Below the pieces are notes generated by a model, which was given only the letters and a program-made list of their open reading frames with translations, ran no database searches and had not been told where the DNA came from. This document shows, piece after piece, positions 28,513-41,656 of a stretch of 41,729 bases of DNA. Position 1 is the stretch's first letter. Every line of letters begins with the position of its first letter. Position numbers and translations under genes: made by a program. Location of the stretch: NCBI GenBank assembly GCA_013153865.1, contig JAADDR010000123.1, positions 1 through 41,729 on the forward strand, written 5' to 3'. The DNA comes from Chlorobiota bacterium. GTDB lineage: Bacteria; Bacteroidota; Bacteroidia; Bacteroidales; JAADGE01.

Positions 28513-28854
28513 ATGCACGAATTGTCAATTGCTTTGGGAATTGTAGAAATAGCCGAAAAAGAAGTTCTGAAAGCCGGAGCATCTAAAGTTGAGTTGATAG
28601 AACTTGAGATAGGAAAATTGTCGGGAGTTGAAATAGAAGCTTTAAATTTTGCATGGCCTCAGGCTACGGAGGGAAGTGTATTGGAAACTGCCGAAAAAAA
28701 GATTTATGTAATAAAAGGAGTTGCCGAATGCCTCGATTGTAATATAAAATTCGATATCGAAAATATATATGACAGTTGCCCGAAATGTAACGGATATTTG
28801 AAAAACATTATACAAGGAAAAGAGTTGCGAGTAAAAGCTCTAACTGTTGATTAA
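28513..28854 (+). CDS. hypA: hydrogenase nickel incorporation protein HypA
   Basis: 113 residues, family length. The N-terminal MHELSIALGIV supplies the nickel-binding Met1-His2-Glu3 trio. The zinc domain has two CxxC pairs, Cys73/Cys76 (ECLDCN) and Cys89/Cys92 (CPKC). HypA receives nickel from HypB and delivers it to the large subunit once the iron centre is in place. First gene of the plus-strand arm, 20 bases after its -7 box, with hypB 37 bases downstream. Confidence 0.97.
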   Translation: MHELSIALGIVEIAEKEVLKAGASKVELIELEIGKLSGVEIEALNFAWPQATEGSVLETAEKKIYVIKGVAECLDCNIKFDIENIYDSCPKCNGYLKNIIQGKELRVKALTVD

Positions 28855-28891
28855 AATGTATCGGAAAACATAACCTGATAAAATATATATT

Positions 28892-29692
28892 ATGTGCACA
28901 ACATGCGGATGCGGAGTAACCGACGAAATAAGCATAAAACTGCCGGGAGAAAATTTGTCCGGAGCGGTAAAAAATATGCAAATCGAAATAAGTAATCATC
29001 ATGAACACGAACACGGTCATCATCACGACCACAGTCATGAAAAAACGGTTATCGAGTTGGAACAAGATATTTTGCATGCCAATAAGATGCTTGCCGAAAG
29101 AAACAGAGGTTATTTTCTTGCCAAAAATATTTTTGCGATAAATTTAGTAAGTTCGCCGGGTTCGGGAAAAACAAGTTTGCTTGAAAAAACTTTGTCGGAT
29201 TTGAAAAACGAGATAGATTTTTACGTAATAGAAGGTGACCAGCAGACCATGAACGATGCCGACAGGATAGATGCGTTGAAAGTACCTGTTGTGCAGATTA
29301 ATACCGGAAAAGCATGTCATTTGGACAGCGATATGGTAAATAAAGCAATATTAAAATTAAACCCTTCGCAAGATTCGATAGTAATGATTGAAAATGTCGG
29401 TAATTTGGTATGTCCCGCGGCTTTTGATTTAGGTGAGAATGCCAGAGCGGTAATAATAAGCACTACCGAAGGAGACGACAAGCCGATAAAATATCCCGAT
29501 ATGTTTGCCGATTCGGATGTTTGCATCATAAATAAAATCGATTTGCTTCCTTACGTTAATTTTGATGTTTCCAAAGCAAAAGATTATGCACTGAGAGTAA
29601 ATCCGAAGCTCATATTTTTCGAAATATCGGTAACAACGGGCGAAGGAACCGATAAATGGTACGAATGGTTGAAAAGTAACGTTAAAAAATAA
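28892..29692 (+). CDS. hypB: hydrogenase nickel incorporation GTPase HypB
   Basis: 266 residues. Three nickel-handling elements are visible. First is the N-terminal CxxCxC motif (MCTTCGCG; Cys2, Cys5, Cys7), the high-affinity site. Second is a His-rich stretch at residues ~36-49 (HHEHEHGHHHDHSH) that can store nickel. Third is the G-domain metal site with Cys142-His143 in GKACHLDSDM. The SIMIBI-class GTPase domain has the P-loop SSPGSGKTS (residues 87-95), EGDQQT and the NKIDLLPY guanine-specificity motif. GTP-dependent dimerisation drives transfer of nickel to HypA. The gene is followed five bases later by hypC. Confidence 0.97.
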   Translation: MCTTCGCGVTDEISIKLPGENLSGAVKNMQIEISNHHEHEHGHHHDHSHEKTVIELEQDILHANKMLAERNRGYFLAKNIFAINLVSSPGSGKTSLLEKTLSDLKNEIDFYVIEGDQQTMNDADRIDALKVPVVQINTGKACHLDSDMVNKAILKLNPSQDSIVMIENVGNLVCPAAFDLGENARAVIISTTEGDDKPIKYPDMFADSDVCIINKIDLLPYVNFDVSKAKDYALRVNPKLIFFEISVTTGEGTDKWYEWLKSNVKK

Positions 29693-29697
29693 ATATT

Positions 29698-29967
29698 ATG
29701 TGTTTGGCAATTCCCGGAAAAATAACGGAAATAAACGATGAAGTCGATGCAATTTTTCGCACGGCGAAAGTAGATTTTAACGGCATAATAAAAGAGGTGA
29801 ATTTGGCAATGGTGCCGGAAGCAAATATCGGCGATTACGTTTTGGTTCATGTAGGCAGTGCAATAAGCGTGGTAGATGAAGAAGAAGCAAAAAAAACAAT
29901 GGACATTTTGATAAAAATGGACGAAATAAGTCTGGAAAACGACGAAGATTACGGACGCGAAGAGTAA
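29698..29967 (+). CDS. hypC: hydrogenase assembly chaperone HypC
   Basis: 89 residues. The functional N-terminus MCLAIPGKI is present; Cys2, exposed after Met removal, binds the iron centre with HypD and then escorts it to the large subunit. The body carries AKVDFNGIIKEVNLAMVPEA and GDYVLVHVGSAISVVDEEEA, the OB-fold of the HypC/HybG family. The end is acidic (ENDEDYGREE). Only one HypC-like chaperone is present, fitting a single hydrogenase. It lies five bases after hypB; its partner hypD is on the other arm of the locus. Confidence 0.96.
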   Translation: MCLAIPGKITEINDEVDAIFRTAKVDFNGIIKEVNLAMVPEANIGDYVLVHVGSAISVVDEEEAKKTMDILIKMDEISLENDEDYGREE

Positions 29968-29989
29968 TTTAATCCGAAATACGATTTTT

Positions 29990-30739
29990 ATGTATTTTTT
30001 GTTTGCTTTCGGTATTGTATTGTTAAATTCGATAAACGGTTATTCCGATATTCCTATTTTATCCGGATTAATTATGAGTATGTTGCACGTAATTTCCGGA
30101 CCCGACCATCTTGCCGCCGTAACGCCTCTTTCAATCGACAGTAAAAAAAAATCTTGGGCAATAGGTCTTTTTTGGGGTATAGGGCATACAGCCGGAATGC
30201 TGATAATAGGACTTATCTTTATTCTGTTGAGAGAAAAAATAAATATTGATTTACTGTCGGCAAACGGAGAAAAAACAGTCGGATTTTTGCTTATAGGTAT
30301 CGGTATTTATTCGCTTCTGAAAATAAACAAAAAACACTCCGGAAAACATACGCACCCGCATACCCACGGCAACGAAGTTCATATTCATTTTCACAAACAC
30401 GAACAAGAAGAAACACACGAACACACGCATAAATTAAATCACAAGGCAAATATGTTCGGAGCATTGGGAATAGGAATACTGCACGGTGTTGCCGGTGTTT
30501 CGCATTTGTTTGCGATATTACCCACTTTGGCTTTACCGACACGTTCCGATTCGATATTATATTTAAGCAGTTTCGGTGCAGGGACAATTTTGGCAATGGT
30601 TGCTTATGCTTCGGCAATAGGTCTTATAAGCAAAAAAGCAGATGCTTCAAACAACGGAAAAATATCTTTGTTTTTGCGAATTTTCGGCGGTGCGGCGGCA
30701 ATAATCGTCGGTATTGTTTGGATTGTTCTAAGTTTTTAG
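29990..30739 (+). CDS. NicO/UreH-like nickel permease
   Basis: 249 residues with about six membrane helices. The first half has the metal motif MLHVISGPDHLAAVTP and a second conserved WGIGHTAGMLIIGL; the second half repeats this with ILHGVAGVSHLFAILP. These His/Asp-containing helix motifs resemble the NiCoT/RcnA/UreH superfamily. Between the halves is a His-rich cytoplasmic or periplasmic loop (residues ~115-150) with clusters such as HTHPHTHGNEVHIHFHKH. Placed 22 bases after hypC at the end of the hyp operon, it most likely supplies Ni2+ for the hydrogenase. RcnA-like proteins of similar fold export nickel, so direction rests on context. Its His-rich loop parallels the one in HypB. Confidence 0.82.
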   Translation: MYFLFAFGIVLLNSINGYSDIPILSGLIMSMLHVISGPDHLAAVTPLSIDSKKKSWAIGLFWGIGHTAGMLIIGLIFILLREKINIDLLSANGEKTVGFLLIGIGIYSLLKINKKHSGKHTHPHTHGNEVHIHFHKHEQEETHEHTHKLNHKANMFGALGIGILHGVAGVSHLFAILPTLALPTRSDSILYLSSFGAGTILAMVAYASAIGLISKKADASNNGKISLFLRIFGGAAAIIVGIVWIVLSF

Positions 30740-30819: not shown

Positions 30820-31914
30820 ATGAAAAATTTTTTACTTACTTTAAGCATATTTTTTATGCTTTATTCCGGAAGCCTGTTTTCTCAGGCAATAATAATAGAC
30901 CACAATTGTGCAAAACTCGAACCTGTTACCGAATCTGCCGTTAATCAGGCAAAACAAACATTACATATTGCCTACGGTCATACATCGCACGGCAGTCAGC
31001 TTATAACCGGCATGTCGGCATTAATCGGACAAACAAGTTTAAACGGTTATAAAGGCGATATTTACGATTGGAACGAAGGCGGAACCGACGGAGCTTTGGA
31101 TATTGACGATTATTTCGGGTCGGGGGACCTCGGGCATAACGGCGATACGTCTTGGGCACCTTACACTCGAACATATTTAGCCGATAATCCGGATGTTAAT
31201 GTCGTAATATATTCTTGGTGCGGAGGACTTTCCGATAATACTCCCGACGGTATTCAAACCTACTTGGATAAGATGAACGAATTGGAACAACAATATCCCG
31301 GCGTAAAATTTGTCTATATGACCGGACATGCCGATATATGGGCAGATGAAACCGTTAAATCCGGAAATAATCAAATCCGAAATTATTGCAGAACAAATAA
31401 TAAGATTTTGTATGATTTTAACGATATAGAAATGTATAATCCGGACGGCACTTATTTTGAGTTTGTAAACGATAATTGTGATTATTATGATGCTCCGGGC
31501 GGTAACCTGTCGGGTAATTGGGCTGAAGAATGGCGCAATACTCATACCGAAGGTGTCGATTGGTACGATTGTGATCCGGCACATACCGATGCTCTTAACG
31601 GAAATTTAAAAGCTTATGCCGCATGGTGGCTTTGGTGCAGACTTGCCGGCTGGGAAGGAACGGGCACGGAAATTATAAATGCAGAAAATAATTTCGAGTT
31701 ATATCCGAATCCTGTCGAAAATATCTTAAAAATAAAAACAAACGAAAAAATTCTACGTATCGAAATAACTGACATAACGGGTAAACTTGTTAAAACCGAA
31801 GGTTTTTCGGGTGCTTATAACGAAATTAACGTATCGGATTTAGAACCGGGCATCTATTTTTTGAATATGGATACGGAAAAAGGACAAAATATTTTGAATT
31901 TTATAAAGAAATAA
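30820..31914 (+). CDS. secreted SGNH-hydrolase-like protein with T9SS sorting domain
   Basis: 364 residues. The N-terminal signal peptide (FLLTLSIFFMLYSGSLFS, cut before QA) is followed by a catalytic-looking domain of ~255 residues. I do not recognise a named family but see an SGNH/GDSL-like layout. There is a possible nucleophile Ser in IAYGHTSHGSQL, Gly-rich GSGDLGHNGD, a beta strand ending in IYSWCGGLSDN, FVYMTGHAD, and a C-terminal DCDPAHTDALNGN that fits the Asp-x-x-His block. It ends with a T9SS type A sorting domain (residues ~285-364: FELYPNPVENILKI, VSDLEPGIYFLNM). The protein is therefore probably exported across the outer membrane and anchored or released. Substrate unknown. It lies downstream of the hyp operon behind a strong hairpin. 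Confidence 0.65.
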   Translation: MKNFLLTLSIFFMLYSGSLFSQAIIIDHNCAKLEPVTESAVNQAKQTLHIAYGHTSHGSQLITGMSALIGQTSLNGYKGDIYDWNEGGTDGALDIDDYFGSGDLGHNGDTSWAPYTRTYLADNPDVNVVIYSWCGGLSDNTPDGIQTYLDKMNELEQQYPGVKFVYMTGHADIWADETVKSGNNQIRNYCRTNNKILYDFNDIEMYNPDGTYFEFVNDNCDYYDAPGGNLSGNWAEEWRNTHTEGVDWYDCDPAHTDALNGNLKAYAAWWLWCRLAGWEGTGTEIINAENNFELYPNPVENILKIKTNEKILRIEITDITGKLVKTEGFSGAYNEINVSDLEPGIYFLNMDTEKGQNILNFIKK

Positions 31915-31919
31915 AAATA

Positions 31920-31958
31920 AAAGAGGGTTTTCCGCAATAAGAAGACTCTCTTTGTTTT
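31920..31958. terminator. bidirectional terminator between convergent genes
   Basis: AAAGAGGGTTTTC (31920-31932) pairs with GAAGACTCTCTTT (31941-31953), a 13-bp stem with two G-T pairs and an 8-base loop, followed by GTTTTAT. On the opposite strand the stem is followed by TATTTTTATT, so it can end both convergent transcripts. Confidence 0.75.
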
Positions 31959-32928
31959 ATTCTTCGTAATATTCGAAAGCATCTATTATATCAAGATAAA
32001 CCCCGTCGAAACCGGCATCAAGGATTTTTTTAAGATAAGAATTATCATTTCCGTAAATAATATCCTGCCATTCTTTTTCCCAATACCATACTTTATAATT
32101 TCCTTTCCAGTCGGGGTTTTCTTTATCTAACCAAAAAGGTTTGTCTTTATCCCATTCTTTTTGCCAGTAATACCTGTAATCTTCTGCTTCGCCGATGCTC
32201 ATGTATGATATTACAAGCCGTTTTCCGCCGTTATTTTTTATCTTTAGAGATGATATCTCACTTTCCGTAAAAGCTGTTTCGTTAAAAAACAAATCCGTCA
32301 GAATTATGTCGAAATTAGTTTCGGATACGGCGCCGATAAAATCTTCTTTTGACGTAAAATTTTCGGTATTAATAAGATAAAGAAAGTTTTTTGCATCGTT
32401 AATATTGTTTATATCATCGGAATTTTCGCCGTAAACAGGAACCGGATAATCCGGAATTACATTGAGGTTTCGTTCGGGGGCGGCAAAAGATATAAAACCG
32501 AGATTACTGTTTTCAGCATAAGAATCGGACATTTTGGATTGCGTATAACAATAGTCGGTAACGAGTATTTTAACTCCGTTTTCTTTTTCGATATTTAAGA
32601 ACGGCAACATAAAATTCTTATCGTTTTCCGAAGTTGCTTCATCATCGTTGTCATATCCGTAAAAAAGGTCTTCTCTGCCTTGTCCGTCAACGGCATTAAG
32701 GTAATAAGTCGCCGGAGTTCCGTCTGCTTCGCCGTTTTCGGTTGCCAGTTGCTCGCCGTTTTGCGGAATAACGGCAAAATCAGGGTTTATGTTTTTTGCA
32801 TAAGAACTTATTCCTTGCACAAAATTTCTCATCTCCTGCTTAAAGTCGATATTTTCGGGTATATCGTTTTTGTCGCACGACGACAAAGCAATTGCCGAAA
32901 TGCTTAAAAATATTATTGCTGCTTTCAT
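31957..32928 (-). CDS. TM1410/GH114-like putative endo-polygalactosaminidase lipoprotein
   Basis: 323 residues from ATG 32928 (upstream in-frame residues from 32961 do not look like a signal). The N-terminus MKAAIIFLSISAIALSSCDK is a lipoprotein signal with lipobox LSSC. The body follows the TM1410/MJ1477 family of (beta/alpha)8 glycosidases related to GH114: VKILVTDYCYT, NLGFISFAAPE, FDIILTDLFF, KRLVISYMSIGEAEDYRYYW, NYKVWYWEKEWQDI and the C-terminal GFDGVYLDIIDAFEYY with the acidic pair expected in the active site. Members of GH114 cut alpha-1,4-linked galactosamine polymers. The activity here is inferred from family resemblance only. It has its own -7 box and starts with a hairpin-containing leader. 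Confidence 0.78.
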   Translation of the reverse strand: MKAAIIFLSISAIALSSCDKNDIPENIDFKQEMRNFVQGISSYAKNINPDFAVIPQNGEQLATENGEADGTPATYYLNAVDGQGREDLFYGYDNDDEATSENDKNFMLPFLNIEKENGVKILVTDYCYTQSKMSDSYAENSNLGFISFAAPERNLNVIPDYPVPVYGENSDDINNINDAKNFLYLINTENFTSKEDFIGAVSETNFDIILTDLFFNETAFTESEISSLKIKNNGGKRLVISYMSIGEAEDYRYYWQKEWDKDKPFWLDKENPDWKGNYKVWYWEKEWQDIIYGNDNSYLKKILDAGFDGVYLDIIDAFEYYEE

Positions 32929-32951
32929 TATGTATGTTTTGGTAAAAACTA

Positions 32952-32974
32952 AGGACGACATAAAAAGCCGTCCT
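32952..32974 (-). terminator. small hairpin between the Asp-box gene and the lipoprotein gene
   Basis: AGGACG (32952-32957) pairs with CGTCCT (32969-32974) around an 11-base loop. Read on the minus strand the loop contains CTTTTTAT and the stem is followed by AGTTTTTACC. It may end the upstream Asp-box gene transcript or lie at the very 5' end of the lipoprotein mRNA, because the -7 box is just upstream. Confidence 0.45.
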
Positions 32975-39421: not shown

Positions 39422-41656
39422 ATGAAAAAATTATTACTTTTATTAACGGTAACACTATTTACTTTTTTTAGTGCTAAAGCCCAAATATTATGGGAATGTA
39501 ATTTTGAAACCGCGGGAGGATACACAACCGCTCATCCCGAACATAATGACGGAGCATACGATTATTTTGCCCGTTTAACTAATAATGATATCTCGGCAAC
39601 TTATAATTCTCCCGAACAATCTTATTTCTTTGCCTGTCAGGATATTGATGCTGACGGAGGGGTAAATCCCGATACTGTTTTTTTTACCGGAATTGATATA
39701 AGTTCGGCAACTCAACCGAATTTGACAATCTCATTTTTAGCATCAGAATTTGCTTCAGGTTGGGACGATGTTGACTTTGTCCATTTTCTTTACAGTGTTG
39801 ACGGCAGCTCTTACCAAAATCTGATTTGGTTTGAAAATGACGGCAGTCAATATAATTCTGCAGCTTTTGAAGATACCGATTTTGACGGAACAGGAGACGG
39901 CACTCAACTGACAAATACTTTTGCCGAATTTTCCAAACAAATTCCTTCCGGCGGATCTTCTCTTGATATTATGGTTGTTGTCAGCTTAAATTCAGGCAGC
40001 GAAGACTTTGCTTTCGATGATGTTCTTGTTTACGACGGAACTCCTGTTGTTATTCCGGAAATTACCAATATTGCTCAAATAGGAACTTCTGAGATAGGTA
40101 TTACTTACAATGCTTCTTTATCTGCTCCTGATGTCTCGAATTATCTTTTGGTTGACGGTATTAACAGTATTACTTTCGGCAGTCTTATTGCAAATTCGGG
40201 TAATGATACCATAGTATTATCAAATCCGTCTCAAACGATATCACAAGATGTTATACTCGACACACTCGTTGATGCTGCCGTTAATGATACTGCAGTATTT
40301 TATGCCGGAATTTTACCCGTTTCATACACAAATACGGCAAATAATCCCGATACGGTTATGCAAGGATATAACTTAACTTTGTCGGGTGTTGTTACCGCCA
40401 ACGATAATTATAATCAAGTTTGGATACAAGACTCCGATAACCCGATGTCGGGAGTGTTAATTTACAGCTCTTCTTTTGACTCCGAAGTTTCCGTGGGAGA
40501 CAGCATTGTAATAGCAGGACAAAAATCAATTTATAACGGTTTAACCGAAATCGTAAACCCTATTTTGATTTCTTCGGTAAGCGGACATACACCCGTTGCC
40601 GCAAATGTTGATGCCGCAGATTTAAGCTACGACAAAACACAAGACGACCCGGCGGCTGAGCCGTGGGAAGGACAACTCGTTACCGTAAACGAAATAATTA
40701 TTGACAGTTTAAATTCAAGCAATTATGAATATTACGGACATGATTGCGACGGAAATATTATATGCTTTGACGATGATGTTGATTATCACTACGGAAGCGG
40801 ATTTTCTTTAACAACCGGAAATATGTACTCAATTACGGGAGTTGTTACATTCTCTTACGGACATTACAGAATAAATCCGAGAGGAACGACTGATGCAATC
40901 GAAACATCAATAGATTTAACTTCCGTTGTCGAAGAACCGGACAATCAAGTTCCTAATCAAACAATAGACGCAACTGTTCCCGTCGATTCTTTACACGCAA
41001 TAGAAGTATTCAAATTTAAAATCGTTGACGAAGGTTCGGACGGATTGCCGACTAAATTATCTCAATTCGATTTATATCTCGGTCCCGAAAATACCGTAAG
41101 TTTTGAAAACGATGAAATAGCGGGAGGTTGGTTTGATTTCGGAGATGCAAATAACCCGATTCAATTTACTGGAGATCCCGATTTTGATACAGATCATTTC
41201 ACTTTTTACGTAAATCCCGAATCTGCCGTTATAGACAACGGAACCGAAAAAGAAGTAATATTGCATTTGTGGTTTGATTATGATTTACTGGAAGATGATG
41301 CCGTATTGCAAGTTGCATTAAAGTCCGATTCTCACGGCTTTGTTTCGGAATGTGCAACATCTCAATTTATGTCGGTATTTGCCTCTGATATTGACGGAGG
41401 AGAAATAACTTTGGATAAAAATGTATCAATAGAAACAATTGACGATAATGTAAAAATATATCCGAATCCGTCAAACGGAGTTTTCAATATTACTGCCGAC
41501 GGTTATAATCTTGAGGTATTTGATATTACGGGAAGAAAGATTACAACAAGAACATTAAACGGAACGGCAAGTATTAAATTACCCGTTTCTGGAGTTTATT
41601 TCTTAAAATTCTCAGATAATAAAGGGTCGTTTACTCAAAAAGTAATCGTGAAATAA
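39422..41656 (+). CDS. modular T9SS-secreted surface protein
   Basis: 744 residues. The signal peptide (LLLLLTVTLFTFFSAKA, cut before QI) is followed by a ~190-residue beta-rich domain (ILWECNFETAGGYTTAHPEH to FAFDDVLVYDGTP), which looks like a jelly-roll carbohydrate- or surface-binding domain. A ~100-residue Ig-like unit follows, then a region with an OB-like pattern (LTLSGVVTANDNYNQVWIQD, VSVGDSIVIAGQ, EPWEGQLVTVNEII, YSITGVVTFSYGHYRINP) seen in many T9SS exoproteins and in nuclease-associated modules. Another ~150-residue beta domain comes next, and finally a type A T9SS sorting domain (VKIYPNPSNGVFNIT ... GVYFLKFSD ... TQKVIVK). No catalytic motif is recognised. Function unknown; adhesion or polymer binding is a guess. 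Confidence 0.85.
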   Translation: MKKLLLLLTVTLFTFFSAKAQILWECNFETAGGYTTAHPEHNDGAYDYFARLTNNDISATYNSPEQSYFFACQDIDADGGVNPDTVFFTGIDISSATQPNLTISFLASEFASGWDDVDFVHFLYSVDGSSYQNLIWFENDGSQYNSAAFEDTDFDGTGDGTQLTNTFAEFSKQIPSGGSSLDIMVVVSLNSGSEDFAFDDVLVYDGTPVVIPEITNIAQIGTSEIGITYNASLSAPDVSNYLLVDGINSITFGSLIANSGNDTIVLSNPSQTISQDVILDTLVDAAVNDTAVFYAGILPVSYTNTANNPDTVMQGYNLTLSGVVTANDNYNQVWIQDSDNPMSGVLIYSSSFDSEVSVGDSIVIAGQKSIYNGLTEIVNPILISSVSGHTPVAANVDAADLSYDKTQDDPAAEPWEGQLVTVNEIIIDSLNSSNYEYYGHDCDGNIICFDDDVDYHYGSGFSLTTGNMYSITGVVTFSYGHYRINPRGTTDAIETSIDLTSVVEEPDNQVPNQTIDATVPVDSLHAIEVFKFKIVDEGSDGLPTKLSQFDLYLGPENTVSFENDEIAGGWFDFGDANNPIQFTGDPDFDTDHFTFYVNPESAVIDNGTEKEVILHLWFDYDLLEDDAVLQVALKSDSHGFVSECATSQFMSVFASDIDGGEITLDKNVSIETIDDNVKIYPNPSNGVFNITADGYNLEVFDITGRKITTRTLNGTASIKLPVSGVYFLKFSDNKGSFTQKVIVK

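Follow-up and report, generated by a model that had tools for sequence, protein, structure and literature searches.

In the SGNH fold, AlAXEase, CE3 and Est24 carry the canonical SGNH blocks. Departures from these blocks have been described for several esterases. The passages on CE2 in PMC2661963 and PMC9487903 report that 14 of 26 sequences lack the Asp, and those in PMC2661963 present CtCE2 and CjCE2B as Ser-His dyads in which the His is held by a main-chain carbonyl, that of a Cys in CjCE2B. For CE20, a water-mediated triad is given in the relevant part of PMC12313940, while the section on SASA in PMC9487903 names the block-I residue next to Ser as the oxyanion donor.

We analyzed a 41,729-nucleotide stretch of DNA from a Chlorobiota bacterium (the window; contig JAADDR010000123.1) that encodes an exported protein of 364 aa, designated the window protein. 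Its features are given below, with counts referring to 72 aligned domains of the family, of which group A is the window's own.

30820..31914, + strand: coding sequence of the window protein, an exported protein of predicted SGNH fold, 364 aa (open reading frame, profile scans, selection)
30820..30882, + strand: putative signal peptide, residues 1-21 (hydrophobic N terminus; cleavage site unsure)
30883..31662, + strand: predicted SGNH-fold domain, residues 22-281 (alignments, predicted model, fold searches)
30976..30999, + strand: GHTSHGSQ, residues 53-60, block-I-like, just after beta-1 in the model
30985-30987, + strand: Ser56, candidate nucleophile, kept in 72/72
31213..31227, + strand: SWCGG, residues 132-136, end of beta-3; Trp133 in 72/72
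31318..31335, + strand: MTGHAD, residues 167-172; His170 invariant in group A only
31414..31416, + strand: Asp199, end of beta-5, 72/72
31573..31602, + strand: DPAHTDALNG, residues 252-261, block-V-like (alignments); Asp252 variable
31582-31584, + strand: His255, candidate general base; block-V His in 72/72
31699..31911, + strand: T9SS type A sorting domain (TIGR04183 / PF18962), residues 294-364 (hmmscan)
31957..32961, − strand: homologue of GH114-type (PF03537; MJ1477/TM1410 family) glycoside hydrolases, convergent 3′ neighbor (profile scans)

The open reading frame is real, and its coordinates and the four motifs were found in the translation as the first-pass annotation had reported them. 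The T9SS tail scored above the curated cut-offs in hmmscan (TIGR04183, 45.2 bits versus 23; PF18962, 56.2 versus 27) and was the sole domain that this search returned for the window protein, with nothing above cut-off for residues 22-281. By this tail, the window protein is a T9SS cargo, which agrees with the earlier proposal of a surface or released protein. Hydrophobic N termini were present in its relatives too. The window domain was 81-83% identical to those of the same-genus loci L001, L002 and L003, whereas the identity of the T9SS tails was merely 39-51%. For the domain, pN (dN) was about 0.11 against a synonymous p-distance (pS) of 0.65-0.69. As judged from these distances, the gene is under purifying selection, and the low pN relative to pS, together with the low identity of the tail, indicates that the domain is the part that selection keeps.

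No Pfam, NCBIfam or PHROG model matched residues 22-281. The GHTSHGSQ family is unnamed in these three collections, and the first-pass annotation had likewise been unable to put a family name to it. Its assignment to an SGNH-like enzyme found no backing in profile searches against SGNH/GDSL families, none of which showed a significant link. No Pfam SGNH model (Lipase_GDSL, GDSL_2, GDSL_3, SASA, DUF4886, PatB and others) was detected at an E value of ≤1 for 21 family members or at an E value of ≤0.1 for 10 members of clades B and C (see below). An hhalign comparison of the family with purpose-built PF13472, SASA, DUF4886 and GDSL_3 profiles yielded nothing significant (rows L079 and L082 were left out of the SASA set, as the cut stretch contained stops); for scale, two PF13472 sets matched each other at 99%. 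All 72 domains compared with the second PF13472 set gave an E value of 5e-4 and a probability of 31%, which was judged too weak to use. Since the hhalign links were not significant, the fold is the sole ground for common descent with known SGNH families. Among PDB sequences, the 7pzj lipase (E value of 6e-6) matched query residues 212-353, i.e., the T9SS tail plus about 70 domain residues, and was taken as a tail match; the match to 5jvk was confined to the tail, and a profile of the domain alone retrieved no SGNH chain. A Pfam match to the haemophore (MHB) model was rejected, as it lay below cut-off and covered one helix. The string TSHGSQ was absent from the open-licence papers searched, among which we found no description of the family, although such absence is no proof.

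The first AlphaFold2 model, built for the window domain from a 21-row alignment, showed a flavodoxin-like alpha/beta/alpha SGNH fold (pLDDT of 91.8, pTM of 0.91). In a Foldseek search of the PDB, the SGNH acetyltransferase PatB and GDSL acylhydrolases led the matches (best E value of 1.3e-3); nothing was found at an E value of ≤0.001, TM-scores were about 0.4-0.45, and unrelated folds (TubZ, racemase) appeared at ranks 6-8. Re-ranking of the Foldseek candidates by VIA-align gave a best Z of 12.3, with an rmsd of 3.6 over 164 for the GDSL lipase 4rw0 and of 3.6 over 173 for the acetyl xylan esterase 7ddy. These matches consisted mainly of GDSL-type esterases, CE3/acetylxylan esterases, sialate O-acetylesterases, PatB/OatA and PAF acetylhydrolase, together with three designed scaffolds and some entries whose titles were uninformative. 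A second model (pLDDT of 84.5) was obtained for the relative L033, which shares 36% identity with the window domain. In its fold search, SGNH-type entries (with three designed scaffolds counted in) occupied ranks 1-39 at Z of 10.8-8.3, and a clearly unrelated row first appeared at rank 41 (Z of 8.0). In a viral structure library, a putative acylhydrolase of phage PhiPLPE was among the leading named matches (TM of 0.52). An unrelated fold is ruled out for the window domain by the two models and their fold searches, and the predictions make it almost certain that the GHTSHGSQ family has the SGNH fold, as the first-pass annotation had supposed.

A scan of a named genome collection returned 12 loci with 40-74% identity over the best segments, the record titles of which comprised Bacteroidales, Bacteroidetes, Chlorobiota/Chlorobi, Ignavibacteriae, WOR-3 and Spirochaetales. 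The domain was detected in 12 of 60 close-relative genomes, among them 9 of the 14 from the window's genus (own genome included). The first profile found it in 4 of 395 genomes drawn across the phylum, and the wider profile, applied to a sample of 393 genomes from the order of the window, in 43. Four IMG/VR contigs carried it (4 of 21 candidate stretches were confirmed), and the family had no match among INPHARED phages or PLSDB plasmids. On two IMG/VR contigs (L043:3644-5711 and L044:3167-5723), the gene directly follows a piece of DNA polymerase B, which in L044 comes with an intein splicing domain; this adjacency may mark a mobile insertion site. Three tandem copies were seen within one genome each at L100:2059-9346 and L145:5475-10389, and long open reading frames were also noted, of 1422 aa in L100 and of 967 aa, with six Big_2 stretches, in L140.

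Conservation was counted first in 30 relatives and then in 72 deduplicated domains, a subset that includes the full-length matches of the order scan only in part and is not the family total. Excluded before counting were L006 (frame broken by a stop), L034 fragments, incomplete matches (G525 and G695:C139, among others) and repeat copies of contigs (e.g., L013, L021-L027, L037, L107, L109 and L110). A maximum-likelihood tree of the 72 domains supported clades B, C and D apart from group A, which does not form one side of a single branch, as the long-branched L045 joins clade C. Group A (56 rows) mostly shows HTSHG, SWC and MTGH. Clade B (7 rows) has G-E/M-S-H, TTGP or variants and mostly an Asp at −3 of the block-V His, clade C (3 rows) has FTGN or FTCN, and clade D (6 rows) has RRSHG and W-S-S. 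Aligned with group A at the profile level by hhalign, these clades gave E values of 1.5e-21 (B), 3e-48 (C) and 5e-61 (D).

Six residues (Ser56, His57, Trp133, Tyr148, Asp199 and Trp269) are identical in all 72 domains. In the model of the window domain, the strand at 28-33 is directly followed by the Ser at model residue 35, which is the block I position; this is the Ser of GHTSHGSQ that the first-pass annotation had put forward as the candidate nucleophile. The block-V His is kept throughout; it lies right before the C-terminal helix, and 25 residues is its usual distance from the end of the domain. The earlier proposal that DPAH represents the SGNH Asp-x-x-His block holds for this His and fails for the Asp: an Asp three residues before it is present in only 8 of 72 domains, with 2 of 56 in group A (the window protein and L009) and 5 of 7 in clade B. 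Tested by alignment, the proposed triad is therefore invariant at Ser and His and variable at Asp. CDPAH of the window protein is replaced by CSPAH in its three nearest relatives. In 10 L033-like rows, the second His (QH) was counted as the block-V His; the first His (GAH and variants), which stands one residue out of register, likewise has no Asp at −3. A conserved Asn was not found at the SGNH block III site after beta-3 in the 72 domains, where, by sequence position, S-W-C or variants stand (at residue 134, 63 domains have Cys, 8 have Ser and 1 has Tyr). His170 is present in 56/56 group A rows and gives way to Pro/Ala in B, Asn in C and Cys/Thr in D. In the block II region, the glycines of GDLGHNG include none that is invariant among the 30 relatives. 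A loop after beta-5 with a calcium-type pattern (D-x-[DN]-x-DG) was rejected as a family feature, since it occurs in 5 of 30 relatives (L038-L042) and is missing from the window protein. By these alignments, the family departs from the canonical S-G-N-H signature at the block III Asn and the block V Asp; Ser and His form the constant core, and the residues in the positions of third member and oxyanion partner differ between clades.

Around relatives, 48 neighbor proteins were scanned (one set of 8 and four sets of 10). As a raw count, five of the 48 looked carbohydrate active (one of them, DUF4832, weakly) and 43 were unrelated. A GH11 xylanase lies 190 nt upstream of the gene in L012, a rhamnogalacturonan lyase about 10 nt upstream in L099 and a GH5 about 170 nt downstream in L149, all on the same strand as the gene; L099 also has the weak DUF4832/GH42-like neighbor, and L106, from the window's genus, has a GH114 neighbor. 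Fusions of the domain were seen in L042, with a beta-helix and LamG, and in L141, where the partner is a Pel9A-like beta-helix. The L042 frame (L042:3-5852, IMG/VR) spans 1950 codons, with the beta-helix, LamG, further repeats and a C-terminal SGNH domain joined by Thr/Ser/Pro-rich linkers. The same-strand GH11, lyase and GH5 genes and the fusions are suggestive of a polysaccharide ester as the substrate.

A GH114-type gene is found near the family gene in the same-genus loci L001, L002, L003, L005 and L028. There was no evidence for a shared operon of the two, which in the window are convergent and not codirectional. The match of the window's GH114-type protein to PF03537 was limited to roughly the first half of the model (17-119 of 231) and lay close to the C terminus of the protein; TIGR01370 matched it in two stretches. 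Since the neighbor in L106 (L106:9832-10803) repeats this partial pattern, the domain may be permuted or shortened. Elsewhere in the window, positions 28513-30739 (+ strand) hold hypA, hypB (with a His-rich N terminus), a short open reading frame which we take to be HypC-like and, directly after it, a membrane protein. The latter has a DsbD_2/weak nickel-cobalt transporter match and a long His-rich loop and is likely, from these features, a nickel supply gene for hydrogenase maturation. A large T9SS-tailed protein at 39422-41656 (+ strand) matched an ExeM/NucH nuclease weakly (28 bits versus a cut-off of 300).

The explanation that we favor, and consider probable, is that the GHTSHGSQ family comprises undescribed SGNH-fold extracellular carbohydrate O-acetylesterases with a Ser-His dyad as in CE2. 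The esterase or acetylhydrolase activity guessed earlier remains the best reading, as a putative function. The protein would cross the inner membrane via its signal peptide and, judging from the tail model, its C-terminal tail would then route it out through the type IX system. Positioned where the first strand ends, Ser56 would attack an acetyl ester of a polysaccharide, with His255, in the loop before the last helix, as the base. Because most relatives lack the Asp at −3, this His is probably oriented by something else, in the simplest case, by analogy with CE2 esterases, a main-chain carbonyl. The block-III Asn is not kept, so the oxyanion hole must use other donors, one candidate being His57, the invariant neighbor of the nucleophile. 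Removal of the acetyl group could then enable nearby depolymerases to cut. A further proposal, tentative and rather improbable in our view, is that of a rebuilt active site in which the block-III Asn and the block-V Asp are unused, His57 serves in an inverted oxyanion hole, in the manner of the block-I Gln of SASA enzymes, and a helper residue is swapped between two sites across sister clades. The swap would correspond to the pattern of clade B, mostly with Asp before the block-V His and Pro/Ala at 170, and group A, with His170 and no Asp.

An SGNH-fold esterase for other substrates (a lipase, an aryl/thioesterase or a polyesterase that is not polysaccharide specific) is an unlikely alternative. 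Arylesterases, TesA and PAF acetylhydrolase share the fold among the VIA-align matches, and the 43 neighbors that are not carbohydrate active fit such an enzyme as well; the beta-helix/LamG fusions and the same-strand GH11, PL11-type and GH5 genes argue against it. We consider it very unlikely that the domain is an acyltransferase, similar to PatB, OatA or AT3 C-terminal domains, that moves acetyl groups onto a surface glycan. PatB was the top Foldseek match of the window model and the top VIA-align row of the L033 model, but known SGNH acyltransferases operate together with a membrane acetyl donor partner, according to PMC12148441, and no MBOAT/AT3 gene was present among the 48 scanned neighbors; the T9SS tail of the window protein and the copies on IMG/VR contigs also speak against this function. 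Slightly less credible still is a degenerate SGNH domain mainly for carbohydrate binding. Loss of the block-III Asn and the block-V Asp and the invariant tryptophans would suit such a role, and the part of PMC2661963 on CtCE2 describes an esterase site that serves cellulose binding; however, that enzyme retains esterase activity by the same account, and both Ser56 and the terminal His occur in 72/72, a pair for which a module that only binds would have no use. A canonical Ser-Asp-His triad with Asp252 has the least to recommend it, since the Asp of the window protein, L009 and 5 of 7 clade B rows is lacking in 54 of 56 group A rows, the three nearest relatives included.

If the carbohydrate O-acetylesterase reading is right, the SGNH clan would gain a family without a characterized member, and a candidate carbohydrate esterase family would become available for acetylated plant or algal polysaccharides. 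As the clades differ in the acid and block-III residues around the same Ser-His, the question of what replaces Asp in SGNH dyads becomes testable. The rebuilt site, if true, would provide a natural series of how a serine hydrolase swaps its triad.

With the SGNH/GDSL superfamily (Pfam clan CL0264), the family shares the alpha/beta/alpha architecture, the Ser at the end of beta-1 and the His just before the last helix, but it matches none of the Pfam families of the clan, has no conserved block-III Asn and mostly lacks the block-V Asp. AlAXEase (7ddy), CE3 (2vpt) and Est24 (5hoe) are among the best structural matches to the window domain (Z of 11-12), with about 14% identity. SASA, CE6 and CE20 resemble it in combining the SGNH fold with a changed block III; their GQSN block I and QGE block III are missing here, with HTSHG and SWCG instead, and hhalign with SASA was not significant. 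The PatB/OatA peptidoglycan O-acetyltransferases have the same fold, PatB ranking top in Foldseek, whereas the window protein is T9SS exported, carries other block motifs and has no membrane donor partner among the scanned neighbors. CE2 enzymes possess an N-terminal beta (CBM-like) domain and an oxyanion Asn. The window protein has neither, only a leader of about 21 residues preceding its domain. The likeness to CE2, as read from the alignment, would lie in the Ser-His pair kept without a conserved Asp and in Cys251, which stands four residues before the His of the window protein and is reminiscent of the CjCE2B Cys.
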